DNA of 43,935 bases, taken from the NCBI GenBank assembly GCA_947632595.1, contig CANRPY010000009.1, positions 1 through 43,935 on the forward strand, in the 5' to 3' direction. The notes under the pieces were generated by a model. The model saw only the letters and a program-made list of their open reading frames with translations, ran no database searches and was not told the origin of the DNA. Position numbers and translations under genes: made by a program. Shown one piece after another: positions 19,556 to 41,631 of this stretch. The DNA comes from an uncultured Bacilli bacterium (GTDB lineage Bacteria; Bacillota_I; Bacilli_A; RF39; UBA660). The first letter of the stretch is position 1. Each line of letters opens with the position of its first letter.

Positions 19556-21616
19556 ATGGTTTTAGAAAAAAGGGGCTTATACAAGAAAATCATAGATATT
19601 GTTTTAGATATTTTAATTGTTGTTTTTGCAATTATTCTTGCAATCTCTATTTACAGTAATATTCAAGTAAAAGTACTTGGAAATGCCTATTCTAGTTTTT
19701 TTGGATACTCTGTTTTTGAAGTTCAAACGGGTAGTATGGCAGATACGATTAATGTAGGTGATTGGATTGTTGTTAAAAAGTCTAAAAATATCCGCTTAGA
19801 TGATATCATTACATATGAGAAAAATGGACAATTTATTACGCATAGAGTAATTGAGGCTTATAAAGGAACTTATATTACTAAGGGAGATGCGAATAATGGA
19901 AAAGATGAGGCTGTTAATGAGAGTCAAATCGTTGGAAAAGTTGTTAAAATCTTACCAGAATTAGGCCTTATTCGTAAAACTATCTTTAATCCTGTTGTTT
20001 TAATTGCTTTGATTGCAACTCTTTACTTAATTGGTAGCTGCTTAAAAGATGAGAAGAAGAATACCATTAAAAAACAATTAGATACTTTGCGCACAAAACT
20101 TGTGGATAAAACGAAAAAAATGGTTCCTAAAAAAGAAGAAAAAGTTGAAAAAGTGGAAAAAGAGAAAATAGAAGAATCTGTTGTGGAAGAAGTATCTGAG
20201 AAAGAAGAAGGAAAAGAAGAAGTTGTTGAAACTCCTACGGAAGAAGAAAAAGAAATTATAGAAGAGACTGTAGAAGAAGCAGAAGAGAGTCCTGTAGAAG
20301 TAGAGGAAGAGGCTGAAGAGAGGGAACCTGATCTTAATCAGACTATGATTTTCCGTATGGTAGATGTTGATAAACTAGATTTGGATTCTGACTACTTGGA
20401 GCTTGCTAAACAAGAATATGAAATGTTTGATGAAGAAGTAGAAGAAGAGGAGACTACTTCTAAAGAGAATCCTAGTGCTGCTCAAGAAAAATTAAAGATT
20501 GTTCAAAACCGTAAAAAGAAATTTAAAAATCTTATGGATAAAGTTATGTATACCAAGAGTTGTGAAATTCGTGAGATGGTTGATATTCTCAGAGGCGGAG
20601 AAAAGTTTAAGACAAATGAAGCTAGTATTGTAGAAGAACTTCTTACTGATTATATCGATGGAAAATACTATAATTTCTGTAATAATGTTAATCTAGAATA
20701 TAACAGTAAAAATATGCTTACTAGATTAGATACTGAGTTAAAAGAAAAAGGAAATGCTTTGATTCAAAAATACAAGGGAAATGATTCTAAATATGCAGAA
20801 AAAGTAGAGAAATGTGTATCTATTTTCCAATTAGTATCTGTTTTAGAAAAACAATTCTTACAAGATAGTGATGTACAAACAAAAAGAGATGGATATTCTA
20901 CTCGAATTCAAAAATGCTTTAAAAAAGATGGTTTAACAGCATTAGAATTAAAGAATATGATTCATAAACTCATTTCTTTACAAAATACTTATTATTCTGT
21001 TTATAAACATTTATTAAATGAACAAGAGTCAAATACTTTCCAATTAGAACTTCATAAGATTTCTAATTGGAAAAACTTCTTTTATGCATCTTTAAATCAT
21101 AATTTATCCTTTAGCAAAGTCTATAGTAATTATATTGTTGATAAAACTTATTCAGAAGGAGTTATTGCAGAAGATAAGGTTTTGATTCTTTTGAACTTAC
21201 TTATGGTAGAATTTATTAAAGATATGTTCCAAGGAGAATTCCAAAAGAAATATTTCTTCTATTTACCATCTAGTATTTATTCTAAACCAAATAAACTTAG
21301 TAAAGTCTTCCACTTCTTTGAAGATGAATTTGTTAAGAACCATGTTTTTGTTGTCATTCCTTATAGCGATTTTCTTCTTCATAAAAAGATTGTGAAAGAT
21401 TATAAGAAATTAGGATATCACTTTGCTTTGGTTATGGAATACCATGTTCCAATAAAAGATAAAGATCAAAAGTCTATTTCTGTTGCAGACTATGTCTTTA
21501 TTGATAAAAAGATACAAAAAGATAAGGAATACTTAGAAAAGATTCCTATAGATTTAAAAGAATTTATTCTTGTTGAAGATATTCTATCTAAAATAAATGG
21601 TGATGGGGGTAAATAA
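19556..21616 (+). CDS. SipW-type signal peptidase fused to a large cytoplasmic domain
   Basis: Residues 1-165 are an ER/SipW-type type I signal peptidase. A first helix lies at about 12-32, and the catalytic serine S60 is in TGSMADTINVGDW. His96 in ITHRV takes the place of the Lys used by ordinary bacterial enzymes, and TKGDANNGKDEA follows at 108-119. A second helix lies at about 144-161. Unlike SipW (about 190 residues) the protein then continues for some 520 residues inside the cell: a Glu/Val/Lys-rich acidic linker (about 190-275), a helical region and a C-terminal alpha/beta part (FVVIPYSDFLLHKKIVKDYKKLGYHFAL...DYVFIDKKIQKD). The last part is faintly reminiscent of a degenerate EAL-type barrel end, but I do not claim that fold. 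It is first in the operon; the ATPase gene follows after two bases. Confidence 0.85.
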   Translation: MVLEKRGLYKKIIDIVLDILIVVFAIILAISIYSNIQVKVLGNAYSSFFGYSVFEVQTGSMADTINVGDWIVVKKSKNIRLDDIITYEKNGQFITHRVIEAYKGTYITKGDANNGKDEAVNESQIVGKVVKILPELGLIRKTIFNPVVLIALIATLYLIGSCLKDEKKNTIKKQLDTLRTKLVDKTKKMVPKKEEKVEKVEKEKIEESVVEEVSEKEEGKEEVVETPTEEEKEIIEETVEEAEESPVEVEEEAEEREPDLNQTMIFRMVDVDKLDLDSDYLELAKQEYEMFDEEVEEEETTSKENPSAAQEKLKIVQNRKKKFKNLMDKVMYTKSCEIREMVDILRGGEKFKTNEASIVEELLTDYIDGKYYNFCNNVNLEYNSKNMLTRLDTELKEKGNALIQKYKGNDSKYAEKVEKCVSIFQLVSVLEKQFLQDSDVQTKRDGYSTRIQKCFKKDGLTALELKNMIHKLISLQNTYYSVYKHLLNEQESNTFQLELHKISNWKNFFYASLNHNLSFSKVYSNYIVDKTYSEGVIAEDKVLILLNLLMVEFIKDMFQGEFQKKYFFYLPSSIYSKPNKLSKVFHFFEDEFVKNHVFVVIPYSDFLLHKKIVKDYKKLGYHFALVMEYHVPIKDKDQKSISVADYVFIDKKIQKDKEYLEKIPIDLKEFILVEDILSKINGDGGK

Positions 21617-21618
21617 TT

Positions 21619-23154
21619 ATGAATACATTTTTAAGATTTTTCTATGAATTTACATCGATTTTCTTTAATGGTTTCTTTATGATTTTTAAAGGACTATTTG
21701 GGGGAATTAAAGAGATGTTTAACTTTCCTAAATATGGGAAAGTTATTGAAAGTTATAAAGGGTTCTTTAATGGGGGAGAGATGGTTTTTGTTATTTTAAC
21801 CATTGTTTTCCTTGTTATTATTTGTTTATTAGTTATAGGAATTCTTTATCTTATTATCCGAAAGATTATTCGGAGACTAAATAATACTTATAGTAAAGAT
21901 GAACTTTTAGATGAGATTGGGGAATTAAATGATAAAGTACGTCAACTTATGAAAGAAAAAGATGAGTTGATGGCAATGAAAGTATCTCAACTTGGGTTAT
22001 CTCCTGATGGAGATGAGGGTGAAGAGGGAGAGAAACCTTCTGAAGAAAACCCTGAAGAAGATCCAAAAGAAGCGGGAATTCGATTCCCTAAATTGTGTTC
22101 TTACGATGAACTTTATCAAAATTATCATGCACAAAACTACGATAATAGTTTTACCTTAGCACAATTAATTGATGACTTCCGTTGTTTTTCTGCTTCTCAG
22201 TTACATCTTTATTATGATTATTCTATTTTAAGACCTTTCTTTGCAGGACTTGCTTGTTCTAAACTTATTATCTTACAAGGTATTTCTGGTACTGGTAAAA
22301 CTTCCCTTGCTTATGCTTGGGGTAAATTTGTTAAGAATGATGCTTGTGTTACTTCTGTAGAACCATCTTGGAGAGATAAGTCTGATTTCTTAGGATATTT
22401 TAATGAACTTACAAAGAAATTTAATGAAACGAGTGCCTTGGGTGAGATTTATATTGCAGGATTTGATGATAATGTACATACCATTATTCTAGATGAAATG
22501 AATCTTGCTCGTGTTGAGTATTATTTTGCAGATTTATTATCTATTCTTGAAATGCCTAATAAAAAAGAATGGTTAGTCGATATTGTTTCTAGTTCTTGGC
22601 CAAAAGACCCTAAAAAACTAGAAAAAGGTAAATTAAGATTACCTCCTAACTTATGGTATATTGGAACGATTAATAACGATGAATCTACCTTCATGGTAAC
22701 CGATAAAGTTTACGATAGAGCTATGCCTATTGATATTAATACGAAAGTAGAAGCTTTTAAATGTCGTGAGCAAGAAGCAGAAAATGTAAATTCTACGTAT
22801 TTGGAGACTTTATTTGAAGAAGCAAAAGAAAAGTATCCATTATCTGCGAAAGGATTAGAAACGGTTAAAGAATTAGATGATTATATTACCGAACACTTTA
22901 GAATTGCTTTTGGTAATCGTATTATGAAACAATTAGGAGATTTCTCTCCTGTTTATGTTGCTTGTGGTGGAAAAGAAATTGAAGCGATTGATTACTTTAT
23001 TGCGAAAAAAGTATTACGTAAATTTGATCAATTAAGTGTTAATTTTATTCGAGAAGAATTAAATCCTTTCATCTCTTTCCTTAATAAAAATTATGGAAAA
23101 GGTACGATGAAAGAATGTATTGCCTTCTTGGAGAACTTAAAGAAGAGTATATAG
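21619..23154 (+). CDS. Membrane-anchored McrB-like AAA+ ATPase
   Basis: This 511-residue protein has an amphipathic N-terminus, a clear membrane helix at about 54-80, a coiled coil (about 92-120), an acidic linker and an AAA+ module. Walker A is GISGTGKTSLA at 221-231, the McrB-typical VEPSWRDKSDFLGYFN follows at 247-262, and Walker B is IILDEMNLARVEYYFADLL with D292 and E293. Sensor 1 is IGTINNDESTFMVTDKVYDRA near 348-368. The usual D-x-AlxRRF arginine motif of McrB is replaced by YDRAMPIDI. McrB is the GTP-driven motor of McrBC restriction; GTP versus ATP use is unknown here. Its membrane helix and position between two signal-peptidase genes argue against restriction and for a transport or assembly role. 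Confidence 0.85.
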   Translation: MNTFLRFFYEFTSIFFNGFFMIFKGLFGGIKEMFNFPKYGKVIESYKGFFNGGEMVFVILTIVFLVIICLLVIGILYLIIRKIIRRLNNTYSKDELLDEIGELNDKVRQLMKEKDELMAMKVSQLGLSPDGDEGEEGEKPSEENPEEDPKEAGIRFPKLCSYDELYQNYHAQNYDNSFTLAQLIDDFRCFSASQLHLYYDYSILRPFFAGLACSKLIILQGISGTGKTSLAYAWGKFVKNDACVTSVEPSWRDKSDFLGYFNELTKKFNETSALGEIYIAGFDDNVHTIILDEMNLARVEYYFADLLSILEMPNKKEWLVDIVSSSWPKDPKKLEKGKLRLPPNLWYIGTINNDESTFMVTDKVYDRAMPIDINTKVEAFKCREQEAENVNSTYLETLFEEAKEKYPLSAKGLETVKELDDYITEHFRIAFGNRIMKQLGDFSPVYVACGGKEIEAIDYFIAKKVLRKFDQLSVNFIREELNPFISFLNKNYGKGTMKECIAFLENLKKSI

Positions 23155-23167
23155 GAGTTGAGAAGAC

Positions 23168-24298
23168 ATGGCTAAAAGTGTAAAAAAAGTCATTGCGTCT
23201 TGTGAGGAAGCAAATGCAAAAAAAGAAACTTTTTTTGATAAATTGAATCATGAAATGCATTATGAATCTAACTTTAATGGAAATGCCATGTCTTTTGAAT
23301 GGCTTGATCAGATAGAATTTGCTTGTCCTTTTATTGATAACGTTGTAAGAAATGCTAAATTTTCTCTTGTAAAAGAAGAGATGATTGTAAAGGCAGAAAA
23401 AACAAAAAGAATTACTGTAGAAAGTGTTAAAAACTTATCTAGACATCCTGATTATATTGAAAAAGTGGATCCTGCAACTGATGATGTTACTCCTAAGAAA
23501 ATCTTGAATGTTGTTAGTGAAGAAACGTTTAATATTTATGAGAATCGGTTTCTTTATACTTTAATTCATGATATGAATCGAATTGTATATGAAAAAGAAC
23601 AAGAACTTAAGAATTTTCAGTTTGTTGAGAAAAAGTTTTTAGAATACCATGCCAATACTTCTACAGATATGGAAAATGTTAGTATTCAATTACGAGTAGA
23701 TTCTGAATCTTTTCCAAGTGATAAATTAGATAAAAAATTAAAAGAACAAATTAAGAATGCAAAAAGTAGAATTAAAAAAATTAAAATGTATTTTACGAGT
23801 TGGGAACATTCTATGATGTATAAAGAACTTGAGAAGAATCATGTTACTTTATTAAAACCTCCTATTCGTAAAACGAATATTATTTTAAAAAATCCTAATT
23901 TTCAAGTTGCGATGAAGTTATTTGATTATTTACAAAAACTTACGCAAAATGAGGATAGTCGTTCTAATTTAGAAAAAGATGAAGATCCTTTCTTAGGATT
24001 TATTGATTGTTCTTTCTTAACGGATTTTTGTGTACTAGATTCTGTTTCTCGATTAAAAAGAGAACAAAAACAAAAGATGGCTTGTTATGCAATTGTATTA
24101 TTAAAAGAAGAAGTACGTAGAACACTTGATCTTTTACTTCGAGCAGGGATTGAAGTAAGTGATGATGAACTTTTACAAATGCTTGCGGATGAATTAAAGA
24201 AAGAGAGAAGTGAAAGATTGGTTGGAGTAGAAGATGTTAAAAAGAAATTTAAAAATGCTATGGATGAGTATTTAGAAAGGATGCAAGATTACTTGTAA
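23168..24298 (+). CDS. DUF2357/McrC-N-like partner protein, no nuclease seen
   Basis: This 376-residue, charged, helical protein has no membrane helix. The segment VVSEETFNIYENRFLYTLIHDMNRIV (near 116-141) resembles the E-T-x-N-x-x-E-N-R-F-L region of DUF2357 proteins, the usual companions of McrB-like ATPases. A later stretch, YKELEKNHVTLLKPPIRKTNIILKNPNFQ, fits the same family pattern. McrC and most DUF2357 proteins end in a PD-(D/E)xK nuclease; here the C-terminus is instead a helical tail (EEVRRTLDLLLRAGIEVSDDELLQMLADEL...) with no D...ExK signature that I can find. It lies between the ATPase gene and a sipW gene, with gaps of 13 and 8 bases. Confidence 0.55.
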   Translation: MAKSVKKVIASCEEANAKKETFFDKLNHEMHYESNFNGNAMSFEWLDQIEFACPFIDNVVRNAKFSLVKEEMIVKAEKTKRITVESVKNLSRHPDYIEKVDPATDDVTPKKILNVVSEETFNIYENRFLYTLIHDMNRIVYEKEQELKNFQFVEKKFLEYHANTSTDMENVSIQLRVDSESFPSDKLDKKLKEQIKNAKSRIKKIKMYFTSWEHSMMYKELEKNHVTLLKPPIRKTNIILKNPNFQVAMKLFDYLQKLTQNEDSRSNLEKDEDPFLGFIDCSFLTDFCVLDSVSRLKREQKQKMACYAIVLLKEEVRRTLDLLLRAGIEVSDDELLQMLADELKKERSERLVGVEDVKKKFKNAMDEYLERMQDYL

Positions 24299-24306
24299 GG
24301 TGATGT

Positions 24307-24858
24307 ATGAAAATATGGAAGATTTTAAAAAGGTTCGTTAATGTCATTGTTGTCATTGCCGTACTTGGATTTTTATTTGTTGTATGCTTACAAAGATTTA
24401 CTAATAATCGAATGTCTTTCTTTAATTATCGATTGTTTACTGTAGTATCTGGTTCCATGGAGCCTAAATATAAAGTAGGGGATGTTTTGATTGCGAAAGA
24501 AAAAGATCCGCAAGATGTTAAAGTAGGGGATTCTATTAGTTATTTAGGATCTATTGGACAATTTCAAGATAAGGTTATTACCCATGAAGTTGTTAAGATT
24601 GAAAAAGATAAAGATGGAAAATATCTATTTCATACAAAAGGTATTTCTAACTTAGTAGAAGACCCTTTGGTTTCTGAAGACCAATATTATGGTGTTGTTA
24701 TTTATAAATGTGTTATTCTTTCCTTTATTTATCGAATTGTAGGAACTCCTATTGGAATGCTTTTATTTATTATTGTTCCTATATTCTATATTATTGGATC
24801 TGAAGTGATTGCGACATTCCTTGAAAAGGAAGAAGAAAAAAGAAAGAAAGCGAAATAA
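24307..24858 (+). CDS. sipW: SipW-type (ER-type) signal peptidase
   Basis: This 183-residue membrane peptidase is of normal SipW length. The first helix is at about 11-28; the catalytic Ser50 is in VVSGSMEPKYKVGDVLIA and His93 in VITHEVV, the Ser-His pair of archaeal/ER-type enzymes; HTKGISNLVEDP follows, then a C-terminal hydrophobic segment (IGMLLFIIVPIFYIIGSEVIA) and a basic tail. In Bacillus subtilis SipW processes TasA and TapA. Here the likely substrates are the many exported proteins downstream with a TYAWF- or TYxKY-like motif. GGTGATG precedes the ATG. Confidence 0.93.
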   Translation: MKIWKILKRFVNVIVVIAVLGFLFVVCLQRFTNNRMSFFNYRLFTVVSGSMEPKYKVGDVLIAKEKDPQDVKVGDSISYLGSIGQFQDKVITHEVVKIEKDKDGKYLFHTKGISNLVEDPLVSEDQYYGVVIYKCVILSFIYRIVGTPIGMLLFIIVPIFYIIGSEVIATFLEKEEEKRKKAK

Positions 24859-24889
24859 GGAAAAAGAAAAAGAGAAAGGAGGAATTAGG

Positions 24890-26098
24890 ATGCTAAAGAA
24901 TGGGAAACGTAGTTTCAAATTTAAAATTGTTCCCTTGTTTTTTCTTGCGGTATCTTTAATCTCTATTTCTCTTGCATGGTTTGCTTATAGTGGTTTGGCA
25001 AAAGTAGAGACAGAAATTGATGTAAAGACTTGGTATATTGAGTTTCAAAAAAATGGAGAAGCAGTTTCTAATAATATTGTGATTTCTCTTGATGAGATTT
25101 ATCCTGGAATGGATACGGTTCATGAGTCTGTTAAAATTCTTAATAAAGGAGATACGGATGCTAAACTTAGTTACCAAATTGTTTCTGCTAATATTTTAGG
25201 AGAAGAAAAAAGCGTTACCGATTCTTCTTTTGAAGAAGATCAGTTATCTCAAGAATATCCTTTTCATATTAATATGAATTTGAGTAAGGATTTTGCAAAA
25301 TCTGAAGGAAATTATAGTATGTTTGATTTGTCGGTTTCTTGGCCTTATGAGTCTTCTCATGATGATATTGATAGTGAATGGGGAAATAAAGCTTTTCAAT
25401 TTCAACAAGAACAATTAGAAAAATCGTCTAGAGAAGAGAATTATCAAGTACAACCTTCTATTAAAGTTGTGATTTCTGTCAAAGCAGAACAATACTTAGA
25501 AGAGGGGGAGTCTAGAGATATTCGATTTGATACAGGGGATTTAATTTTATATGATGTTAGTAAACATGAGAGTTGTACTCAACTTAGTGATACTTGTATT
25601 CGTACTCATGTGTTAGATTCTAATAATTTGTTATCGGATCAGACTGTTTCTTTATTACCAGATTTTTATGGTAGTTATGCAAGTGGGTCTTATGGTGATT
25701 ATCAAAGTTTACTTTCCTCTTCCTTACCAAATTGGAATGTTAGTAGAAGAGGCTTAACGGTACAAGATATTCTTGGGATTATTTCTTCTGATGTGTTATC
25801 TTCTCAGATTGTGACTCCTAATTTATCTGATCGTATTATAGGAGATGTTTCTTATCCAACTAGACCTAATCAATTATTAGAGCAAGTAACTTCTAGTGGG
25901 GCTTATTTCCGATATGCGCATAATAGTTTTACTTATTTATCTACAAATTCTTGTATTTGGACACAATCTGAATATTCTGGTGATATGGGTTTTGCTCTTA
26001 CGAAGATTGATGATGGTCACTCTAAAATCTATGGAGAGAATAAGAATACCTCTTGTATGATTATTCCTGTTATTGTTGCGGACAAAGATACCTTATAG
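24890..26098 (+). CDS. Exported SipW-type substrate, TasA/camelysin-like
   Basis: From the ATG at 24890 (AAAGGAGG eight bases upstream) the protein has 402 residues; the open frame upstream to 24809 overlaps sipW and lacks a ribosome binding site. The N-terminus is basic and hydrophobic with ISLAWFAYSG at about 26-35, the same A-W-F site seen in the TasA-like proteins downstream. The mature part begins with the typical TasA-family pattern: EIDVKTWYIEF, then ISLDEIYPGMDTVHESVKILNKGDTDAKLSYQI. The rest is long and beta-rich, with a Cys pair in SCTQLSDTC and two more Cys near the end. It is the last gene of the operon, consistent with being a substrate of the linked peptidases. Confidence 0.7.
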   Translation: MLKNGKRSFKFKIVPLFFLAVSLISISLAWFAYSGLAKVETEIDVKTWYIEFQKNGEAVSNNIVISLDEIYPGMDTVHESVKILNKGDTDAKLSYQIVSANILGEEKSVTDSSFEEDQLSQEYPFHINMNLSKDFAKSEGNYSMFDLSVSWPYESSHDDIDSEWGNKAFQFQQEQLEKSSREENYQVQPSIKVVISVKAEQYLEEGESRDIRFDTGDLILYDVSKHESCTQLSDTCIRTHVLDSNNLLSDQTVSLLPDFYGSYASGSYGDYQSLLSSSLPNWNVSRRGLTVQDILGIISSDVLSSQIVTPNLSDRIIGDVSYPTRPNQLLEQVTSSGAYFRYAHNSFTYLSTNSCIWTQSEYSGDMGFALTKIDDGHSKIYGENKNTSCMIIPVIVADKDTL

Positions 26099-26117: not shown

Positions 26118-26148
26118 CAAAAAAATAAAGCACAATTTGTGCTTTATT
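26118..26148 (-). terminator. Terminator of the minus-strand TasA-like gene
   Basis: Stem AATAAAGCAC (26124-26133) and GTGCTTTATT (26139-26148), loop AATTT, with a T tract on the minus strand at 26125-26118. Confidence 0.75.
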
Positions 26149-26764
26149 GAATCATTTGGGTAAATGCCATATCTACTTTAATCTTTAGAGATTCTTCTGA
26201 TGCGTTTCTTCCAATTTCTGTATCTTCTTCATCACTCATTTGTTCTTCTTCTCCTTCGTACCATTCAAAGTAAATTCTAATTGTGAATGGTTCAAATTGG
26301 AAAGAATCTAATTCATTATTATAAAGAAGAGTTCCTTCTATTTGATTTTCTTGTATGTTCTTTAATTCTTGTTGATCTTGTTCTTTATGGGTTGTATCTA
26401 ATATCGAATATTTTGTAATCACTAAGTCGGGAATATTTTCGTTTAACATATTTAATGTAATTTTATAATTAAATGATAATTGTACGTTAGATGGATCTAT
26501 ATCAATATCAAAATAACCTTTTGATGATGGGGCAACCTTATTCTTCGCAATATATTGATTTTGTTCAATTACAGGCATTAACGTAATTTCTTTGGTATTC
26601 TTATCCGTAATATCACTTTCATTGACAAGTATTTGCCATTTGGAGAAGGATACTTCGAAGTTTCCTGTTGTATTTGCTGCATATTTTGAATAAGTACTGC
26701 TCATTAAACTAAGTGTTATTGATAGTGAAATTAGAACCAATAATAACTTGATTCTGGTTTTCAA
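26144..26764 (-). CDS. Exported TasA/camelysin-like protein on the opposite strand
   Basis: This 206-residue protein starts at a TTG codon with AGGAGGGAAG upstream. The N-terminal signal is hydrophobic (LLLVLISLSITLSLMS) and ends in STYSKYAANTTG, the T-Y-x-K-Y pattern of SipW-processed proteins. The mature part (NFEVSFSKWQILVNESDI, then APSSKGYFDIDIDPSNVQLSFNYKITL) follows the camelysin/TasA beta-sandwich layout, with a short acidic stretch near 175-186. No Cys occurs in the mature part. It faces the TasA-like operon and has its own promoter and terminator; it may be a minor subunit, base or cap. Confidence 0.7.
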   Translation of the reverse strand: MKTRIKLLLVLISLSITLSLMSSTYSKYAANTTGNFEVSFSKWQILVNESDITDKNTKEITLMPVIEQNQYIAKNKVAPSSKGYFDIDIDPSNVQLSFNYKITLNMLNENIPDLVITKYSILDTTHKEQDQQELKNIQENQIEGTLLYNNELDSFQFEPFTIRIYFEWYEGEEEQMSDEEDTEIGRNASEESLKIKVDMAFTQMIQ

Positions 26765-27116: not shown

Positions 27117-28367
27117 ATGAAAAAGAAAAAGAATGATAAGCATGAAAGACGAATTAAAAAGTTGATTGTTGGTTCTTTCTTTTGTGCAATTGTTTTAGCA
27201 GTTTCTACTTATGCATGGTTCATTGGTATGAAAACTGTTAATGTGTCAAGTTTTGATGTTACAATCGCAGCTACGGATAGTTTATCTTTATCTTTAGATG
27301 GTGAAGAGTGGGCAGATACCATTTCTATTGATAAAGCAACTTATAGTGAAAGTGCTTACGAAGGAAATAAAAATGCTTGGCCAAAGAATGGACTTGTTCC
27401 TGTATCTACTGTTGGAAAGATTGATAAGACATCTTCTAGATTAACGATGTTTGAGAAAGGTAGTTTAACGGCTACTCCAGGAGGATATCGTTTAATGGCT
27501 AGTCAAGTTAAGAATAATGGAGAAAATGAACAAGATGGCTATGTTGCATTTGATTTATTTATTCGAAACTTATCTGGTAATGAATACTACAAAGATTTTG
27601 ATGCTTTAAATGAAGAAGCAATTTACTTAACTCCAGAATCAAAAGTAACTGTTGCGGAAGATGGAACAGTTGATGGAGAAGAAAATTCTGGAATTGAAAA
27701 CTCTGTTAGAGTTGCTTTTGCAGAAATCGGACGTGTTGTGGCAACTACAAATACTCCTGAGACGATTACTGGAATTAATTGTAGTTCTACAGGAGATGTT
27801 ACAACGATTTGTGAAAAACGTGATGCACAAATTTGGGAACCAAATGATACAAAACATGTAAAAAATGCAATTAACTGGTACACTACTTCTTGTAAAGCAA
27901 GAACGGGTGATGATGTTACGAAAGATGCTTCTTATGGTGCTACTTGTACTGAAATTAAAGATGGTACTGCATATCCAACATATGCTGTAAGTGGTGTTGT
28001 TAATTATAGTGATAACGTTGATGTTTATGATGGTACGGAATACAATACTTATACGAAATCCGTATCTGATTCAGCTGCTGCTGGTAAATTAGTCAAATAT
28101 GATACTTTCACAGATACTATGAAAGATTTAAAAGGTGTTGATCGTCCAACCTTTATTACACTTGCTCCAAATAGTATTACAAAAGTAAGAGTTTATATCT
28201 ATATCGAAGGACAAGATATTGATAACTATGACTTTGCTTCTTTAGGAAAGAAGATTAAAGTAGGATTTGGATTCACGAAAGAAAGATTCTATGGTGAAGA
28301 TGTAGAATATGATGGTACTCCAGCGTTACCTAGTGGTCTACAATCTAGAACACCTGCAAGTTCATAA
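27117..28367 (+). CDS. TasA-like surface-fibre subunit A1
   Basis: This 416-residue exported protein has a basic N-terminus and hydrophobic helix, then the SipW-type site TYAWF at 31-35. The mature part begins with IGMKTVNVSSFDVTIAATDSLSLSLDG and has G-G-Y-R-L-M-A-S, GYVAFDLFIRNLSG, IENSVRVAFAEIGRV, IWEPNDTKHV and the C-terminal ITKVRVYIYIEGQDIDNYDFASLG, a block widespread in TasA-like proteins of gut Firmicutes. Four Cys in the central part (NCSS..ICEK, TSCKA..ATCTE) are kept in all A and B copies and probably form disulfides. No sortase motif. Its closest relative is the gene at 33538. It is the first gene behind the leader. Confidence 0.8.
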   Translation: MKKKKNDKHERRIKKLIVGSFFCAIVLAVSTYAWFIGMKTVNVSSFDVTIAATDSLSLSLDGEEWADTISIDKATYSESAYEGNKNAWPKNGLVPVSTVGKIDKTSSRLTMFEKGSLTATPGGYRLMASQVKNNGENEQDGYVAFDLFIRNLSGNEYYKDFDALNEEAIYLTPESKVTVAEDGTVDGEENSGIENSVRVAFAEIGRVVATTNTPETITGINCSSTGDVTTICEKRDAQIWEPNDTKHVKNAINWYTTSCKARTGDDVTKDASYGATCTEIKDGTAYPTYAVSGVVNYSDNVDVYDGTEYNTYTKSVSDSAAAGKLVKYDTFTDTMKDLKGVDRPTFITLAPNSITKVRVYIYIEGQDIDNYDFASLGKKIKVGFGFTKERFYGEDVEYDGTPALPSGLQSRTPASS

Positions 28368-28390
28368 AATAGAGAATGGAGGAAAAACAT

Positions 28391-30889: not shown

Positions 30890-31039
30890 ATGAAAAAGAA
30901 TGAAGAAAAGATTGGTTTTGATTTATCATTATTAAGTTTAGAGGAATTATTGGATTGCTATACCAATATTTGTGACTTTTTACAGTTTTTAGAAGAAAAT
31001 AAACTAGAAACAGAAGAGAAGGAGACTTCCGATGATTAA
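30890..31039 (+). CDS. 49-residue acidic small protein
   Basis: A short reading frame, ATG at 30890 to TAA at 31037-31039, has AGGTGA upstream and overlaps the next start codon (31032) by eight bases, a sign of translational coupling. It begins MKKNEEKIGFDLSLLSLEEL and has two Cys around a helix (DCYTNICDFLQFLEE), then a Glu-rich tail. No membrane helix. The position between a fibre subunit and a cytoplasmic partner gene suggests a small adaptor, but this is a guess. Confidence 0.6.
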   Translation: MKKNEEKIGFDLSLLSLEELLDCYTNICDFLQFLEENKLETEEKETSDD

Positions 31040-33537: not shown

Positions 33538-34776
33538 ATGGCAAAGAAAACAAAAAAAGAAGAAAAGCATGAAAGACGAATCAAAAAGCTTATTATTGGT
33601 TGTGGTCTTTGTGCAATTATTTTAGCAGTTTCTACTTATGCATGGTTCATTGGTATGAAAACTGTTAATGTCTCAAGTTTTGATGTTACAATTGCAGCTG
33701 CTGATAGTTTATCTTTATCTTTAGATGGAAAAACTTTTACAGATACTCTTGATATTAATAAAGAAAACTATTCAACTAGTGCATATGATGCTAACACAAA
33801 CTCTTGGGTTACAAAGGGATTAATTCCAATGTCTACTGTTGGAGTGATTAATTCTACATCTTCTCGTTTAACTTTATTTGAGAAAGGTAGTTTAACGACT
33901 ACACCAGGTGGTTATCGTTTGATGGCTAGTAAGGTTAAAAACGAAGGTGCAAAAGAACAAGATGGATATGTTGCATTCGATTTATTTATTAAGAATTTAT
34001 CTGGAGAAGAGTATTATCAAGAATTAAATGTTCTAAATGAAGAAGCTATTTATTTAACACCAGAATCTGCAGTTACGGTTTCTGCTAGTGGAGACAATGA
34101 AGAAAATTCTGGAATTGAGAACTCTGTTAGAGTTGCTTTTGCACAAATTGGTCGTGTTGTAGCAACAACAGCTGATCCTGCTACTGTTACAGGAATTACT
34201 TGTAGTACTGCTGGTGCTGTTACGGGAATTTGTAGTGATAGACCTGCACAAATTTGGGAACCAAATGATACTGCACACGTTCAAAATGCGATTAACTGGT
34301 ATAGTACTTCTTGCTTAAAGAGAACAGCAAAAGATGTTACTTCTGCAGATTCTTATAGTGGATCTTGTAGTGAAATTACAGAAGGTACTGCTTATCCAAC
34401 TTATGCTGTAAGTGGTGTTGTTGATTATAAAGATAATATCGATGTTTATGATGGAGAAGCTTATAATGGTTATACTGATTCTGTTGCAACTGATGCTGCA
34501 GATGGTAAACTAGTTGCTTATGAAACATTTACAGATACCATGAAAAATAAACAAGGTGTTGAACGTCCTACTTTCATTACTTTAGCACCTAATAGTATTA
34601 CAAAAGTAAGAGTTTATATTTATCTTGAAGGACAAGATATTGATAACTATGATTTTGCTTCTTTAGGTAAGAAGATTAAAGTAGGATTTGGATTTACTAA
34701 GGAAAGATTCTATGGTGAAGATATTAATTATACTGGAGAACCATCATTACCTCCAGAAAATGTTAGAGGATCTTAA
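33538..34776 (+). CDS. TasA-like surface-fibre subunit A2
   Basis: This 412-residue protein is the second copy of the A type. The signal region carries STYAWFIGMKTVNVSSFDV at 32-50, identical in that stretch to A1. It keeps GGYRLMASKVKN, GYVAFDLFIKNLSG, IENSVRVAFAQIGRVVATT, IWEPNDTAHVQNAINWY and the C-terminal block ending in KKIKVGFGFTKERFYGED. The central four Cys are preserved. It differs from A1 mainly in the surface loops around residues 60-85, 180-190 and 240-330, as expected for exposed regions. AGAAGGAG lies seven bases before the ATG. Confidence 0.8.
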   Translation: MAKKTKKEEKHERRIKKLIIGCGLCAIILAVSTYAWFIGMKTVNVSSFDVTIAAADSLSLSLDGKTFTDTLDINKENYSTSAYDANTNSWVTKGLIPMSTVGVINSTSSRLTLFEKGSLTTTPGGYRLMASKVKNEGAKEQDGYVAFDLFIKNLSGEEYYQELNVLNEEAIYLTPESAVTVSASGDNEENSGIENSVRVAFAQIGRVVATTADPATVTGITCSTAGAVTGICSDRPAQIWEPNDTAHVQNAINWYSTSCLKRTAKDVTSADSYSGSCSEITEGTAYPTYAVSGVVDYKDNIDVYDGEAYNGYTDSVATDAADGKLVAYETFTDTMKNKQGVERPTFITLAPNSITKVRVYIYLEGQDIDNYDFASLGKKIKVGFGFTKERFYGEDINYTGEPSLPPENVRGS

Positions 34777-34795: not shown

Positions 34796-36094
34796 ATGGC
34801 AAAGACTGATAGAAAACGTAAAAATAAACGTGTTAAGAAATTAATTGCTATTTGTGTGATTTGTGCTGTTGTATTAATGGTTTCTACCTATGCATGGTTT
34901 ATTGGTATGAAAACGGTTACCGTTAATTCTTTCGATATTGATATTGCTACTACGGAAGGATTATATTTATCCATGGATGGAAATACTTGGACAACAACAC
35001 TTGATGCGAAAGAAGCAGTTGCTTATGCAAAAAACGCAAATGTATGGGCAGATAGTGATGATACTGGTCTTATTCCAATGTCTACAGTAGGAGATATGGA
35101 TAAGACATCTTCTAGACTTAAATTATTTGAAAAAGGTAGTTTAACAACTACAAAAGGTGGTTACCGACTACTTACTTCTCGTGTTGCGAATAACACAAAT
35201 TTAGATCCAGATAAAGGACAATATACTGAGGGAAAAGGTTATGTTGCTTTCGACTTATTTATTAAGAACTTATCTGGAACAGAATATTATGAAGATAATG
35301 AACCTTTAAATGAAGAAGCTATTTACTTAACTTATAATTCTGCTGTTAAAGTTGCTTCTGAAGGTGGAGTTGCTGATTCTGGTATTGAAAACTCTATTCG
35401 AGTTGCTTTTGCACAAATTGGTCGTGTTGTAGCAACTACTGAGACTGCTGATGATATTACTGGTATTACTTGTACAGATGCAGGAGATGGAGAAAGTCAT
35501 GCAAAGGTTACTGGAATTTGTCGTAATGCACAAATTTGGGAACCAAATGATACTGCTCACGTACAAAATGCTTTGAACTGGTTCCAAAAATCTTGTAAAA
35601 CAAGAAAAGCAGAAGGTGCTACTGTAAGTGATCCTGAGTCTTATAATGATGCTGCTTGTGCTACTTTAAGTACTTCTCAAGCATATCCTACTTATGCCAT
35701 TTCTAGAGCATTAGATGTTAGTGATAATGTTGATATTTATGATGGTACTGAGTTTAATACTTATACTGCTAATACAACTGATTATGCAACCTATGCTGCT
35801 GGAGAAAGTGAAAGTAAGACTTATAAATTAGTTAATTTCCCATATTTTACAGATACGATGAAAAATGTTAAGGGAGCAGATAGAAATACTTTTATGACAT
35901 TAGCTCCTAATAGTATTACAAAAGTTAGAGTTTATATCTATATTGAAGGACAAGATATTGATAATTATGACTTTGCTCAATTAGGTAAAAAAGTATCTAT
36001 TAACTTTGGATTTACTAAGGAAAGATATACAGAAGAAGATTATGAAGAATATGATGGACCTACAACTGGAACAGATGCAGAACACACTTCATAA
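34796..36094 (+). CDS. TasA-like surface-fibre subunit B2
   Basis: This 432-residue protein is the second copy of the B type: VSTYAWFIGMKTV at 29-41, FDIDIATTEGLYLSMDG, LFEKGSLTTTKGGYRLLTSRV, YVAFDLFIKNLSGTEYY, IENSIRVAFAQIGRVVATTE, ICRNAQIWEPNDTAHVQNA and the shared C-terminal block (APNSITKVRVYIYIEG, DNYDFAQLGKK). It has the four central Cys. Relative to B1 the variable loop after the fourth Cys and the YAAGESES insert differ. AGGGAG precedes the ATG. A C(UUCG)G-capped terminator ends the operon. Confidence 0.8.
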   Translation: MAKTDRKRKNKRVKKLIAICVICAVVLMVSTYAWFIGMKTVTVNSFDIDIATTEGLYLSMDGNTWTTTLDAKEAVAYAKNANVWADSDDTGLIPMSTVGDMDKTSSRLKLFEKGSLTTTKGGYRLLTSRVANNTNLDPDKGQYTEGKGYVAFDLFIKNLSGTEYYEDNEPLNEEAIYLTYNSAVKVASEGGVADSGIENSIRVAFAQIGRVVATTETADDITGITCTDAGDGESHAKVTGICRNAQIWEPNDTAHVQNALNWFQKSCKTRKAEGATVSDPESYNDAACATLSTSQAYPTYAISRALDVSDNVDIYDGTEFNTYTANTTDYATYAAGESESKTYKLVNFPYFTDTMKNVKGADRNTFMTLAPNSITKVRVYIYIEGQDIDNYDFAQLGKKVSINFGFTKERYTEEDYEEYDGPTTGTDAEHTS

Positions 36095-36099
36095 AATGG

Positions 36100-36124: not shown

Positions 36125-36152
36125 GTTTGGAGTAGTAAATTCCTATCTTTTA

Positions 36153-36161: not shown

Positions 36162-36196
36162 TATAGTGTAATAATAGGATGTATCGAGGGTTGCCT

Positions 36197-39100
36197 ATGA
36201 AAGTATTTGAAAAGTTTCCTTTTAAAAATTCAAAAAGAGCTAAGATTCTTTCTATTGTTCTTATTCTCTTTGTTATTTTAGGGATAGCAATCTCTGTTCC
36301 TTCTCTTGCCAGATTCATGAATCGATCTTCTTTGGTCGATACTGTTGTGTGGGATGGAAGTGTTGCTTCTTCTTATCGTAAGGGTAGTGGTAGTAAGGAA
36401 GATCCTTATCTTATTGCGAATGGGTCTGAGCTTGCTTATTTTGCTCAAAATTTAGAGAATACGGATTATCAAGGAGTTTATTTTAAACTTGCGAATGATA
36501 TTGTTTTAAATGATGGCGTTTTTTCTTATCAGAAGGAGTCTGGTCTTTCTTTATTAAAAGATTCTGAAGTTAAAAGTGTTGATCTTAGTACGGGTAGTGG
36601 ACTTCATTTATTTCCTGAGATGAAGAATTTTAAAGGATATTTTGATGGAGATTCTTATCGCATTTATGGTTTACTTATTTTAAATTCTGCATCTGAAGAG
36701 GTTGGTCTTTTTCATAATTTAGAAGGTACCATTGAGAATTTATATGTAGAGAATGCTTTTGTTTATGGTGGACATACTACGGCTTTACTTGCGGTTCATG
36801 CGAAGAATGCTGTTGTACGAAATACGATGATTCAAGGAAGTGTTGTTGGACTGGATGGAGTAGAAACTGTTACAAAAGATATTTCTACTCATGATGTTGT
36901 TATTTCACAAAAAGAAGAGGAAGAAGATTATGAAGTTTTGCTTCCTAGCCTTTCTTTTGTTCCTTCTAAGATTACTCTTAGTGGATCTGTTCAAATAGAT
37001 GGAGAAGGTAGTGCTTCTATTTTAGGACAAGAAGTTACGGATTCTTTCCAAGTAGAAGTGGATCCTTCCTTAGAAAAGATTTTTCTTCATACTATTGGTT
37101 CTTCTGATACCAAGTTTCAGTTTACGAATCTTTCTTTCCATGTAGAGGGAGAAGTAGGAGACGCTGCTGGTCTTGTTTATGATGCCTCTTCTCTTACGAT
37201 AGAGAACGTTGTTGTGAAGGGAGATATTACTTCCACTTCTTCTGCCGCTGGGTTTGTTCATTCTCTTTTGGGAGATAGTACTCTTGAAAATTCTTATAAT
37301 ACTGCAAGTATTCATAGTGAATCTGCAACTGGACTTATCCATCAAGTTTATGGTCAGACAAATTTATCTATTTCTATGAGTTATAATCGTGGAGTGTTGG
37401 ATAGTACAAAGCAATATGGTTTTCTTGGGAATGTTTCTCTTACAGATGGAGAAGTCAAAATTCAAAATAGTTTTAATACAACGGATAACTATTTCCTTGG
37501 TTCTGTACAAGGTGTTGTTTCTTTGGAAAACGTCTTTACTTCTTCTTTGGGAGTTTTAGAGGGAGAAATACAAGGGGAAGTTTCTATTGTACCTAATGTA
37601 TTAGAAGAAGTTCCTAATCATATTTCTTATCCATTATATGTGGATTCTAGTGATTATTCGAAAGATCATACTCATGCGTGGGTTATGAGTGATGGATATC
37701 CTATTTTATATTTAGATGATTCTACTTCTTCTATTGCGACTATTAATGTTGGGAATAACTATTCTTGGAATAATGTAGGTTACAAATTAAATCCTATTAA
37801 ATTTTCTTCTGCTTTTGCTTTTCAAATTGAAGAAGCCGATCACTTAAATCCTATTAAAGAACAATATTATTATCTTAGTCATTCTAGAGATGCTCTTACA
37901 CAAGAAGAGATTACTTCTATTCAAGATTGGGTTCCTTATACGGATATTGTGGAAATTGATCAAGAAGGAATTTATGTTATTTATGTAAAAGTCGTTGATT
38001 ATTATGAACAAGTGTCTTATTTAAATACTGATTTGATTATCTTAGATATGAGTGGCTCTGATATTACCATATCTTATCAAGATCATACTTGGAATGCGTT
38101 ATCTTTAGATGTTCATTCTCTATATGCAAGTGAAGATATTCAAGTAACGATTGATGCTTATGATGATTTATCTGGTGTTGATACCATAGAATATTATTTA
38201 TCTAGTGAAGTTCTTACAAAGGATGATTTGGATCAGTTAGATGAGAAAGAATGGATTCCTTATCAAGATCCGATAGTGATTTCGGAAGAAGAAAAAATTG
38301 TTTATGTTAAAGTTAAAGATAATTGTCGATATGTTACTTATGCGAATACAGATTTTCTATCTGTAAATGGATACCGAATGACTCGTATTCAAGCAGGAGA
38401 TCAAGTGGGAGAAGATTCGATTTCTGTTACGGATCATTCTACCGTTGAAGTTCGTTATCAATTTAAAGGTAAACTTACTTCTGAGAAAGCTTATACTCAT
38501 GTTTTCCGAACAAGTGAGTCTTTCCCTGTTGGAACGATTCTTACTTTGATTGATCAACAAAATCATAAAGTTTATCAAAGAACGATAGAAGAGGAACTTA
38601 CAGAAATTCCATTTACTTCTTTCCATGAGATTGGAAAGGTATCTAAAAATGATTATTGGGTAGAAGAAGATGGGGTTATTCAAGAAGAAGATTATACGTT
38701 ATTGCTTGATTTTCAAGGTGTAGAAGAAGAACTTTCTCAGGTTAGAATTACTCTTGAACTTTCTTTAGAGGATGAAATTTTATTAACGACTCTTCCTAAT
38801 ACGTATAAGAGTTTTACGGTTTATCCGGATATGGATTCTTCTGTTTCTCTTCAAAGTGATTATACTTCTACCCTTACTTATAATGTCGATCAAGTCTATT
38901 CGATTCCATTTTCTCTTAAACTTTTGACAAAGAGTGTTGCTGGAATTCCTGTTTACGATACGAATTTTGCTGGTAGGATGTTAGGGGTTGCGATTCGACT
39001 TGTAGATTCTAAAGGGCAACCGGTTTCTTCAAAAAATCTTAAAAATCTTGTTTTCCAAATCGATGGGAAGAAGTATTCTCCAGGAAATGATGGCGTTGTT

Positions 39101-39679
39101 CGCTGCAATCTAGAAAATGGATTACAAGATAGTTTGAAAACCCTTACGATAGAGACTTATCAAGATCACTCTTATCTAGAAAGTGGAACTTATCAATTAC
39201 AAATAGGTGGGTATGCTGCTTTTGGTGGTATGTATGATCAAAATATTTCATATGATCTTTCTATTCCTGTTTTGGTATCTAACAAGAAGAGTGAATATCC
39301 TAACTTTGCTGTTTCTCTTTCTAATGATATGAGAATCTTAGAACAAGGAGAAGTCGTTACGATTCCAATTTCTGTTCTTATGAATACTACTTTGCAAAAA
39401 CCAAGTGTTAAAGTTGCTTTGTATCAAAAAGTACATCCTAGTGCTTATCAAAGAGAATATGAGCTTATCGATTTACAGGATAGTCTTGTTGGATACTTAA
39501 ATCGTTATCAAGATTCTATTTATGATAGTGGTGTTACTTTGAACCGTAGTGGACAACAAACGTTCTCGATTAATCTTGATACTTCTAAATTAAAGAAAAA
39601 TGCTTATCAATTTGCTTTTATGCTTTATGATGGAGATACGAAAGTTGCTGTTATTCATAAAGATATTCTTATTCGATAG
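36197..39679 (+). CDS. Large surface protein with GLUG-like and Ig-like repeats
   Basis: This protein is 1160 residues from the ATG at 36197 (GAGGG six bases upstream; an ATG at 36179 lacks a site). An N-terminal signal or anchor helix (about 14-32) ends in SLARFMNRSS, a possible SipW-type site. GSGSKEDPYLIANGSELAYFA and FKGYFDGDSYRIYGLLILNSASEEVGLF...GTIENLYVENA are typical of GLUG-type beta-helix adhesins; that region extends to about 430. Two Ig-like repeats follow at about 553-617 and 664-722, each with YYLS...LT...W.PY.D.I.I...YVKV.D......Y.NTD. The C-terminal 400 residues are beta-rich. No LPXTG or C-terminal membrane helix is seen. An adhesive or tip role in the fibre is inferred. Confidence 0.75.
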   Translation: MKVFEKFPFKNSKRAKILSIVLILFVILGIAISVPSLARFMNRSSLVDTVVWDGSVASSYRKGSGSKEDPYLIANGSELAYFAQNLENTDYQGVYFKLANDIVLNDGVFSYQKESGLSLLKDSEVKSVDLSTGSGLHLFPEMKNFKGYFDGDSYRIYGLLILNSASEEVGLFHNLEGTIENLYVENAFVYGGHTTALLAVHAKNAVVRNTMIQGSVVGLDGVETVTKDISTHDVVISQKEEEEDYEVLLPSLSFVPSKITLSGSVQIDGEGSASILGQEVTDSFQVEVDPSLEKIFLHTIGSSDTKFQFTNLSFHVEGEVGDAAGLVYDASSLTIENVVVKGDITSTSSAAGFVHSLLGDSTLENSYNTASIHSESATGLIHQVYGQTNLSISMSYNRGVLDSTKQYGFLGNVSLTDGEVKIQNSFNTTDNYFLGSVQGVVSLENVFTSSLGVLEGEIQGEVSIVPNVLEEVPNHISYPLYVDSSDYSKDHTHAWVMSDGYPILYLDDSTSSIATINVGNNYSWNNVGYKLNPIKFSSAFAFQIEEADHLNPIKEQYYYLSHSRDALTQEEITSIQDWVPYTDIVEIDQEGIYVIYVKVVDYYEQVSYLNTDLIILDMSGSDITISYQDHTWNALSLDVHSLYASEDIQVTIDAYDDLSGVDTIEYYLSSEVLTKDDLDQLDEKEWIPYQDPIVISEEEKIVYVKVKDNCRYVTYANTDFLSVNGYRMTRIQAGDQVGEDSISVTDHSTVEVRYQFKGKLTSEKAYTHVFRTSESFPVGTILTLIDQQNHKVYQRTIEEELTEIPFTSFHEIGKVSKNDYWVEEDGVIQEEDYTLLLDFQGVEEELSQVRITLELSLEDEILLTTLPNTYKSFTVYPDMDSSVSLQSDYTSTLTYNVDQVYSIPFSLKLLTKSVAGIPVYDTNFAGRMLGVAIRLVDSKGQPVSSKNLKNLVFQIDGKKYSPGNDGVVRCNLENGLQDSLKTLTIETYQDHSYLESGTYQLQIGGYAAFGGMYDQNISYDLSIPVLVSNKKSEYPNFAVSLSNDMRILEQGEVVTIPISVLMNTTLQKPSVKVALYQKVHPSAYQREYELIDLQDSLVGYLNRYQDSIYDSGVTLNRSGQQTFSINLDTSKLKKNAYQFAFMLYDGDTKVAVIHKDILIR

Positions 39680-39691
39680 GGGGTGAGTCAT

Positions 39692-40237
39692 TTGAAAAAA
39701 AAGAAAATTTTATTGATACTACTTGGACTGATTGTTCTTGTTTGTGGTTCTTTCGCTACGTATTCTCTTTTTACCTCAAATGCCTCTTCCCAGATAGAGG
39801 ATCAGAAAATTGCTCAGTTTGTTTTTGATACAAAAAAGACAAATTCTATTGATTTAGCAATCTCTGATTTGGTACCAGGAGATCAACAAGAATATACTTT
39901 TTCTGTTAGTAATCAAGATGCTCAATTTATTAGTCATGTTACTTTAAATTATCAAATTATTTTTGAAACTTTTCATTTAATGCCTCTTGATATTGTTCTT
40001 CTTAAACAAGAGGGAGAAGATTGGAAGGAAGTCTTTACTTGTAATGAGAGTTTTTCTAGAAATGAAGAAAATACTTTGGTTTGTACTTCTCCTATTCAAG
40101 AGATGGAGTATAGTAAGGCAACTTTAGAACAATATAAGATTCGTGTTCTTTTCCCTAAAGAATATAATGGAGTAGAATATTCTGATTTAGTCGATTATCT
40201 TACTGTTCATATTAAGAGTTGGCAAAAGATGAGTTAG
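39692..40237 (+). CDS. Camelysin/TasA-like exported subunit
   Basis: Reading starts at TTG 39692, with GGGGGTGA five bases upstream; a GTG at 39683 in the same frame lies within that site and is less likely. The product has about 181 residues. A basic KKKK start and helix (LLILLGLIVLVCGS) lead to FATYSLFTSNASSQIEDQKIA, the camelysin/TasA arrangement of a T-Y-x-x-F site followed by the mature start. IDLAISDLVPGDQQEYTFSVSN is the typical P-G-D turn of the family. Two Cys (FTCNES, LVCTSP) could form a disulfide. It is 12 bases after the large surface-protein gene. Confidence 0.78.
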   Translation: MKKKKILLILLGLIVLVCGSFATYSLFTSNASSQIEDQKIAQFVFDTKKTNSIDLAISDLVPGDQQEYTFSVSNQDAQFISHVTLNYQIIFETFHLMPLDIVLLKQEGEDWKEVFTCNESFSRNEENTLVCTSPIQEMEYSKATLEQYKIRVLFPKEYNGVEYSDLVDYLTVHIKSWQKMS

Positions 40238-40247
40238 GGGTGTTGGT

Positions 40248-41054
40248 ATGAAAAAAAATACAAAATATTTATGGATAGGTTTCGCTTTATTCCTAGTTGT
40301 CTTTTTGGTTACTTATGGTTCTACTTTTGCAAAATATACAACAGATTCTGTTTGGAATTATTATTTAAAAAGTAAAGGTTTTTACTTTGATAGTCCTCTT
40401 CTAGATGGAAATTCTTATCAAGATCAAAATTGGGATGGAGGAAGTACTTATTTTCAACTTCATAATTACTTAAATGATTCTTTGATTACAGATTATGATA
40501 TTTCTTATGAAGTACATTGTAAGGTTTTAGGAGATGCTAGTGAGATTAGTAAATGTATGATTGCTGGAGAAGATAAGGATGTTTATCAAGGTGTTTTAAG
40601 TGGAGGCGTTGGAAAACAGATTAGTGATTTATACTTTGATGTAGTTCCAACGGGTAGTGAAGAACTTACGGGTGTTAGTGTAGAAATTGAAGTTCAATCT
40701 ACTTCTCCTTATCATAAAACCTTAAAAAATACTTTTGTTCTCAATAAAGGTGAACAAGAGTTAGGTGCTTTGAATCTTGCGTATGAAGAAAAAGATGCTT
40801 ATTCGTATCTTACGGTTACCAATTCTTATTTAGAAGATAAGTGTGTGAAGTTAAGTTTTCCTGCGGAAGATTTGAGAATCGATACCGAAGATAAGCGAAT
40901 CCTTCATCAAGAAGCAAATGAAGAGGGATATGTGCAAGCTGTTACTTTTCAAGTATCTAAAAAAGATAGTGTACGTTTCCGGTTTTATCCAACGAATGGG
41001 AATGTTCATTTAACAAAAAATGCATTTACGATTCAAGAGTCAAAAGAGTGTTAA
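40248..41054 (+). CDS. Exported TasA-like protein with TFAKY site
   Basis: This 268-residue protein has a signal helix (YLWIGFALFLVVFLVTYGS) ending in STFAKYTTDSVWNYYLKSKGFYFDSPLL, the common opening of SipW-type surface proteins in gut Firmicutes. The body is beta-rich: YFQLHNYLNDSLITDYDISYEV, a Cys pair in CKVLGDASEISKC, VSVEIEVQSTSPYHKTLKNTFVL, and further Cys late in the chain. AGGGGTG lies just upstream of the ATG. It is in one operon with the large surface protein and the short camelysin-like subunit. Confidence 0.72.
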   Translation: MKKNTKYLWIGFALFLVVFLVTYGSTFAKYTTDSVWNYYLKSKGFYFDSPLLDGNSYQDQNWDGGSTYFQLHNYLNDSLITDYDISYEVHCKVLGDASEISKCMIAGEDKDVYQGVLSGGVGKQISDLYFDVVPTGSEELTGVSVEIEVQSTSPYHKTLKNTFVLNKGEQELGALNLAYEEKDAYSYLTVTNSYLEDKCVKLSFPAEDLRIDTEDKRILHQEANEEGYVQAVTFQVSKKDSVRFRFYPTNGNVHLTKNAFTIQESKEC

Positions 41055-41103
41055 GTTATTGAGAAAATATGAGGAGTATGTTATTATATAATTGGAGGGC
41101 AGT

Positions 41104-41631
41104 ATGAAGGTTTTAAAGAAAGTTAAAAGTGTTTGTTTATTTGTACTTGGAGCAGCATTCTTTGTATTTGTACTATCTATGTCTATGTTATTATTAAACT
41201 TTAATAAGTTTGGTTTAACAGAGTTTGATGGTACTACGTTGGTTATTATTCCAAGAGAGATTGCATCCGATGTTTATCAAAAAGGTGATTTGGTTTTGGT
41301 AGAATCTAAAAGAGTTGATCAAATCAAAGAACAAGAAGATATTTTTACGTATCGTGTAGATTCTCAAGGTAGTGTTCATATTGATTTGGGAAAAGTTGGT
41401 AAGATTTATCCAGAAGAGAAAGCGATTTCTTTTGAGAATGGTGCTACTTATGCAGAAGAGTTTATTGCAGGAGTTCCTACAAAAGTTTATTCTAAAGTAG
41501 GTTCTGTATTATCTGTTATTGAATCTAGATGGGGATTCTTATTCATCGTACTTGTTCCATGCTTCTTATTATTCTTATATGAAGTTTATGAATTAATCGT
41601 TGAAGTGAAATATGGATCTGAGGAAGAGTAA
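41104..41631 (+). CDS. Signal-peptidase-like protein lacking catalytic residues
   Basis: This 175-residue protein (ATG at 41104, GGAGGG five bases upstream) has the SipW architecture: first helix at about 8-30, a short outer domain with KGDLVLVES matching the G-D-x-L/V-I strand after the catalytic serine, and a C-terminal helix (GFLFIVLVPCFLLFLYEVYELI) like that of SipW. But where active enzymes have SGSM it reads IIPREIASDVYQKGD, and the ITHR/E histidine region reads IFTYRVDSQGSVHIDL. No Ser-His pair can be placed. I infer an inactive paralogue that may bind or regulate peptidase or substrates. A possible TATAAT lies at 41087-41092. Confidence 0.65.
   Translation: MKVLKKVKSVCLFVLGAAFFVFVLSMSMLLLNFNKFGLTEFDGTTLVIIPREIASDVYQKGDLVLVESKRVDQIKEQEDIFTYRVDSQGSVHIDLGKVGKIYPEEKAISFENGATYAEEFIAGVPTKVYSKVGSVLSVIESRWGFLFIVLVPCFLLFLYEVYELIVEVKYGSEEE

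Follow-up and report, generated by a model that had tools for sequence, protein, structure and literature searches.

A membrane-anchored McrBC-like pair linked to SipW peptidases and TasA-like proteins: a likely surface-fibre system of uncultured Bacilli

We analysed a stretch of 43,935 nucleotides (the window; G+C 32%) from the 1.40 Mb, 51-contig genome of an uncultured Bacilli bacterium and found that a McrB-like NTPase with a membrane helix stands there, together with a DUF2357 partner, beside SipW-type signal peptidases and TasA-like exported proteins. Since the same gene order recurs in dozens of divergent loci, the arrangement is not a product of chance. The composition of the system, its linkage, its gene fusions and the riboswitch positions in its relatives are established here at the level of sequence. 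We consider it likely that the system is a membrane-anchored, nuclease-free derivative of McrBC, of the kind named CoCoPALM, that acts in maturing and assembling TasA-like surface fibres. In our view it most likely builds surface structures and does not act in defence.

Gene content of the window

Gene calls throughout were mechanical ORFs. A sequence-only reading of the same DNA had described a five-gene operon (SipW fusion, McrB-like AAA+ with a membrane helix, DUF2357-like protein, SipW, exported substrate) next to two TasA-like operons, a divergent subunit and a surface-protein operon, with no unrelated gene inside. The ORFs matched this layout in their coordinates, all lying on the forward (+) strand except the divergent one at 26144-26764 (-): the five genes, here called A to E, occupy 19556-26098, and the TasA-like sets G-H-I and K-L-M, the divergent F and the surface operon N-O-P-Q were all present, through 41631. 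Gene J (31032-32663, +) encodes a 543-aa cytoplasmic-looking protein with no known domain and no Pfam match above cut-off; because its homologues recur beside the system in many loci, it counts as co-conserved, and the claim that no unrelated gene lies inside stands.

Gene B (21619-23154, +) encodes a McrB-like AAA+ NTPase with an N-terminal membrane helix, near residues 55-85, and a coiled coil. Its motifs are intact (Walker A GISGTGKT, Walker B ILDEMN and sensor TINND, of the NxD type with NND), and when the profile of its family was compared with solved structures, the best match was E. coli McrB (6hz4, E=5.8e-6, profile positions 202-380). The NxD sensor was found in 112 of 114 relatives of B and an N-terminal hydrophobic helix, within the first 150 residues, in 114 of 114, and the alignment has a conserved, charged, coiled-coil-like stretch after the helix. 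By these sequence features B is an NxD McrB-like NTPase, predicted to be tied to the membrane through one helix and a coiled coil.

The partner of B is encoded by gene C (23168-24298, +), a McrC-like DUF2357 protein (PF09823, E=8e-10). For residues 36-263 of its AlphaFold2 model (mean pLDDT 77, pTM 0.49), the four best structural matches were all McrC chains, with Z scores of 7.4-8.7; a Z near 8 is modest, yet the same expected protein filled all four top places. Residues 271-375 of the model hold helices only, and a nuclease domain was not found among them. Judged by the model, C corresponds to the N-terminal (DUF2357) part of McrC, with the nuclease domain missing.

Gene A (19556-21616, +) encodes an ER-type SipW (TIGR02228, E=2e-19; SipW domain at residues 17-158, Ser and His motifs kept) followed by a C-terminal domain of about 390 aa, which we call ACt, and gene D (24307-24858, +) a SipW-type signal peptidase with its catalytic motifs kept (TIGR02228, E=6e-22). 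Both exceed the TIGR02228 cut-off, and their match to NF046067 (Bacillus SipW) lies under its own. The last gene, Q (41092-41631, +), had been read as a further SipW; profile matches to SipW relatives speak for the homology of this membrane protein, but the catalytic SGSM and THRV motifs, with their Ser and His, are absent from it, so Q looks like a dead SipW homologue. Further SipW-type matches (C1, C2, C3) lie elsewhere in the window's own genome, one of them in a 383-aa frame with an internal stop.

Most members of the genus encode ACt as a gene of its own, about 350 aa long, in the same slot; in the window it is fused to SipW. A search of ACt against Pfam gave no EAL match; against an EAL-like profile it scored 26.5-30.0 with decoys on that target at or below 18.5, and the unrelated family of J reached 24.9 on another EAL profile. 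On these sequence scores ACt is perhaps a diverged or decayed EAL domain.

The exported proteins begin with E (24890-26098, +), a TasA-like protein with the signal SLA/WF, identified from its sequence, its homologues and a fusion (L188) in which SipW is joined to an E-type substrate; its start is probably the ATG at 24890 and not the TTG at 24809 where the ORF opens. Homologues of E lie directly 3' of SipW in nearly all loci of the window's family. F (26144-26764, -) is, by sequence, a divergent exported TasA/camelysin-like subunit whose position and orientation are kept in most of these loci. G (27117-28367, +; signal TYA/WF) would be TasA-like fibre subunit 1, and the further subunits 2 to 5 are H (28376-29683, +; 61% identity to G), I (29748-30866, +; 27%), L (33538-34776, +; 75%) and M (34796-36094, +; 61%), with K (32829-33524, +) a short, membrane-anchored member of the set that has no SipW cleavage motif. 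The surface operon holds N (36179-39679, +), a surface protein of 1166 aa whose beta domains are OmpL47-like (signal SLA/RF; NF047446, E=8e-7, under cut-off), O (39683-40237, +), a TasA/camelysin-like protein (signal SFA/TY; PF12389, E=0.0023), and P (40248-41054, +), recognized as an exported subunit from its sequence and signal motif (TFA/KY), with homologues just 5' of the ATPase operon in the majority of loci from the window's family.

The label 'TasA-like' holds with moderate strength for G. Its AlphaFold2 model (pLDDT 70) matched FimA best (Z 5.1) and the TasA fibre structure 8aur at the same level (Z 5.0 over 147 residues). For the models of both C and G, Foldseek gave no significant match, the matches to McrC and TasA stemming from a second aligner, and profiles of the C type and the G type found nothing useful among PDB sequences. 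PF12389, the camelysin/TasA family, was found in 4 of 57 subunits scanned among relatives of the O type, with a best E of 3.3e-6. A PF12389 search of the window's own genome found none, which shows that such subunits escape detection when family models are the only tool. E, G, H, I, L, M, N, O and P each have a SipW-like signal whose P2' residue is aromatic or Leu, and the motif of a hydrophobic stretch followed by an aromatic or Leu P2' was found in 157 of 240 TasA-like proteins, 107 of 188 proteins of the F/O/P type and 74 of 903 other neighbours. TasA itself has Phe at P2' and is cleaved by SipW (PMC10269814). Matches to SieB, Coatomer, CrgA, T7SS EssA and similar Pfam and NCBIfam models were set aside as below cut-off and mostly due to membrane helices.

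Outside 19556-41631, a SAM riboswitch (RF00162, 73 bits) unrelated to the system lies at 9682-9779, 5' of an ORF at 9844-10989, and an ORF at 41709-42881 encodes a PP-loop (TtcA-like) domain joined to one that resembles inorganic pyrophosphatase.

Conservation and linkage

The ATPase was present in 28 of the 36 genomes of the genus searched, including 15 of the 16 with a completeness of 90% or higher, and the order of ACt or SipW-ACt, AAA, DUF2357 and SipW was constant across the genus. Across the class, the ATPase profile found it in 140 of 395 genomes, in several length classes, and a scan of named genomes gave more than 500 loci, the best 80 of which span Bacilli and Clostridia and include the isolate Ruminococcus sp. 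FC2018. We read neighbourhoods, each up to 20 kb long, at 60 places chosen from ATPase matches and at these 80 named loci. Several loci come from genomes that occur in two collections; for the linkage and EAL counts we dropped identical ATPases, and in the comparison of classes we kept them.

The sequence-only reading had proposed a neighbourhood search across Bacilli as its check, with steady linkage and no nucleases as the supporting outcome, and both parts came out in its favour. Among 88 distinct loci, from Bacilli and Clostridia, with the window's ATPase type and at least 3 kb on each side, a DUF2357 gene lay within 500 bp of the ATPase in 86, SipW within 5 kb in 84 and a TasA-like or E-type gene within 8 kb in 80. 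Neither in the model of C nor as a recurrent neighbour of the ATPase was a nuclease found, that is, the nuclease in or beside McrC that marks McrBC and CoCoNuT systems. SipW lies directly 3' of DUF2357 in most loci, and in three Ruminococcus loci (L193, L198, L211) a single polypeptide of 973-998 aa runs from DUF2357 through a long, charged coiled coil to SipW. As read from these sequences, the fusions would tie the ATPase/DUF2357 pair physically to SipW, at least in those species.

With identical ATPases kept, SipW was found near the other ATPase classes in 0 of 13 loci for the ~450-aa class, 0 of 5 for the class of 850 aa and more, and 6 of 7 for the 590-670-aa class. In the ATPase tree the window's type stands mostly apart from the other length classes, with bootstrap support unsettled. 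One clade (L117-L122) has two ~450-aa ATPases flanking one DUF2357 gene beside large membrane-anchored proteins and no SipW; in another, with a ~610-aa ATPase (L123-L128), SipW lies upstream, and in L125 ABC-transporter-like genes and a gene for an exported protein come after DUF2357.

Over the 395 genomes, 134 had both ATPase and SipW, 6 the ATPase only, 146 SipW only and 109 neither (Fisher p=2e-18, uncorrected for kinship). A few loci (L113, L176, L180, L203) have the ATPase and DUF2357 without SipW. SipW is present in 146 of the 255 genomes that lack the ATPase. In B. subtilis, TasA fibres are made with SipW alone, and together these facts indicate that SipW as such can do without the ATPase.

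c-di-GMP riboswitches and EAL genes in the relatives

The operons of relatives carry c-di-GMP-I riboswitches, found with Rfam at 54-71 bits (cut-off 35), a layer of regulation that, with the EAL genes, is new here and goes beyond the sequence-only reading. We built our own c-di-GMP-I model from 20 of these riboswitches, and it gave 33 matches in the first 70 sources. Of the first 20 Bacilli loci from outside the window's family, 13 had a riboswitch; the model matched 0 of 20 loci of the ACt type, 0 of 20 loci of other ATPase classes and none in a second set of 80 loci, and the Clostridia loci gave no match though many of them hold EAL genes. Their position is regular, 30 of 32 examined riboswitches preceding a TasA-like gene on the same strand at a distance from a slight overlap with its start to 300 bp. 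In 15 genomes, 29 of 52 genome-wide riboswitch matches fell inside the 20-kb ATPase loci, which make up about 1% of the DNA, a proportion biased upward because these genomes were picked for their riboswitch loci. In L108, three tandem c-di-GMP-I riboswitches (14684-15007) lie ahead of one TasA-like operon.

When 131 neighbours taken from 21 loci were scanned with Pfam, only DUF2357 was commoner than EAL (12 members) and GGDEF (5). With identical ATPases removed, 24 of 48 non-ACt loci had an EAL gene on the same strand, as against 0 of 66 ACt loci; loci L247-L255 had been picked partly after their EAL matches were known. In four loci (L113, L248, L249, L254) an EAL protein of about 440-460 aa occupies the slot of gene A beside a giant protein. 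Around the ATPase loci it was thus EAL and GGDEF that were enriched, not defence genes, and the outcome that the sequence-only reading had set against itself, an ATPase mostly in defence islands, was not seen. Since the relatives' operon lies behind c-di-GMP riboswitches and near EAL proteins, it appears to be switched together with surface attachment, which argues for a role there and not in defence.

No c-di-GMP riboswitch was found in the window or in its genome, and most of the genus, this genome included, has one GGDEF match, which lies in a frame of ~686 aa, about the length of GdpP; we therefore do not claim c-di-GMP control for the window. The c-di-GMP layer seems to be gone in its family.

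Proposed role, alternatives and known systems

In the mechanism that we infer, B would form a ring beneath the membrane, C would plug into it and stimulate it by analogy with McrC and McrB, and the pair would be coupled to SipW, which in some Ruminococcus shares one polypeptide with C. NTP hydrolysis would gate or drive the cleavage of membrane-held TasA-like precursors and their hand-over into the growing fibre, which is the version we favour. The large surface protein N may sit at the fibre end or base, and in the window's family the possibly EAL-derived ACt, SipW-fused here, may fill the sensor slot.

The main rival to such gating or driving is a chaperone role, in which a MoxR-like quality-control or extraction machine removes or refolds stalled SipW substrates or peptidases and has no direct part in fibre growth. 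A membrane-helix AAA+ protein with a dedicated cofactor beside membrane-held precursors would suit this role, and MoxR-type ATPases such as RavA are thought to be chaperones (PMC3893208); taken alone, however, it would leave the tie to one type of peptidase, the fusions with SipW and the control by c-di-GMP unexplained, and we regard it as unlikely. We think it quite unlikely that co-regulation is all that joins these genes, a c-di-GMP-controlled surface locus having gathered an ATPase pair that acts elsewhere at the envelope, for example on the cell wall or a giant adhesin. SipW-less variants would fit that explanation, both those with a giant protein and an EAL protein described above and two (L096, L203) in which ACt, AAA and DUF2357 precede the gene of a membrane-anchored protein rich in DxDxD (calcium-type) repeats, whereas the place of SipW directly after DUF2357 in most loci, and their fusion in three, speak against it. 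A McrBC-type system for anti-phage or nucleic-acid restriction that uses or guards the cell surface could claim the McrB/McrC ancestry, the match of B to the PADLOC candidate model PDC-M26A (E=1e-40) and the predicted defence role of the CoCoNuT relatives (PMC11090510), but it is very improbable given a C model free of a nuclease domain, PD-(D/E)XK represented among the 25 neighbour families listed by a transposase family only (2 members), listed PADLOC families that each match one member, the EAL and GGDEF neighbours, the riboswitches in relatives and an ATPase carried by nearly every near-complete genome of the genus. On the neighbour families, the PADLOC scan and the riboswitches together, we rejected a defence island as the main reading.

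The system has a precedent in name. Bell et al. 2024 (PMC11090510) used CoCoPALM for systems in which a McrB GTPase carries a fused membrane/coiled-coil domain and has a link to signal peptidases, in one paragraph that defers the details; the main text makes no mention of SipW, TasA, EAL or c-di-GMP, and a literature search on the name found no relevant paper beyond it and its preprint. The window's type shares the NxD McrB-like NTPase with membrane and coiled-coil domain, the DUF2357 partner, the signal-peptidase genes, here SipW, and the supposed link to pilus assembly; the assignment is by these features. The window's system is therefore a variant of CoCoPALM, and the earlier claim that no described system has this make-up was only partly right: the name existed, while the likely TasA-like substrates, the nuclease-free partner, the SipW fusions and the riboswitch and EAL links go beyond that text.

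Three better-known systems offer partial likenesses. With the tapA-sipW-tasA operon of B. subtilis, which to our knowledge contains no ATPase or DUF2357 gene, the window shares a SipW-type peptidase and likely TasA-like substrates with an aromatic P2', which here too would form surface fibres; the window differs in its many subunits and an apparently dead SipW homologue. McrBC and CoCoNuT type IV restriction systems share the McrB-like NTPase and the McrC-like DUF2357 activator; here, in contrast, we found no nuclease domain and no nucleic-acid-binding domain, and there are a membrane anchor, surface-protein neighbours and, in relatives, c-di-GMP control. In Lap control (LapD/LapG/LapA), degenerate EAL-type proteins and a peptidase stand beside a surface adhesin system, which we take as an analogy only, with a different peptidase, an NTPase motor here and no shown homology.

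Put in full, our account is of a widespread McrBC branch that has moved off nucleic acids entirely, in which a McrB-like motor in the membrane and its McrC-like activator, devoid of a nuclease, would drive or gate cleavage by SipW and the assembly of TasA-like fibres, ancestrally under c-di-GMP control through riboswitches and EAL-type receptors, the EAL receptor having decayed to a SipW-fused domain in the window's family; for this whole chain of steps we see about even chances. If true, a restriction-type motor would have been redirected to membrane-associated protein substrates, and CoCoPALM, named yet undescribed in the main text of Bell et al., would gain likely substrates, a peptidase partner and a regulator. 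The role of nuclease-free McrBC relatives becomes testable in Ruminococcus sp. FC2018, with fibres and attachment as the read-out, and the system may open a route to the surface fibres of uncultured gut Bacilli, a little-known subject.
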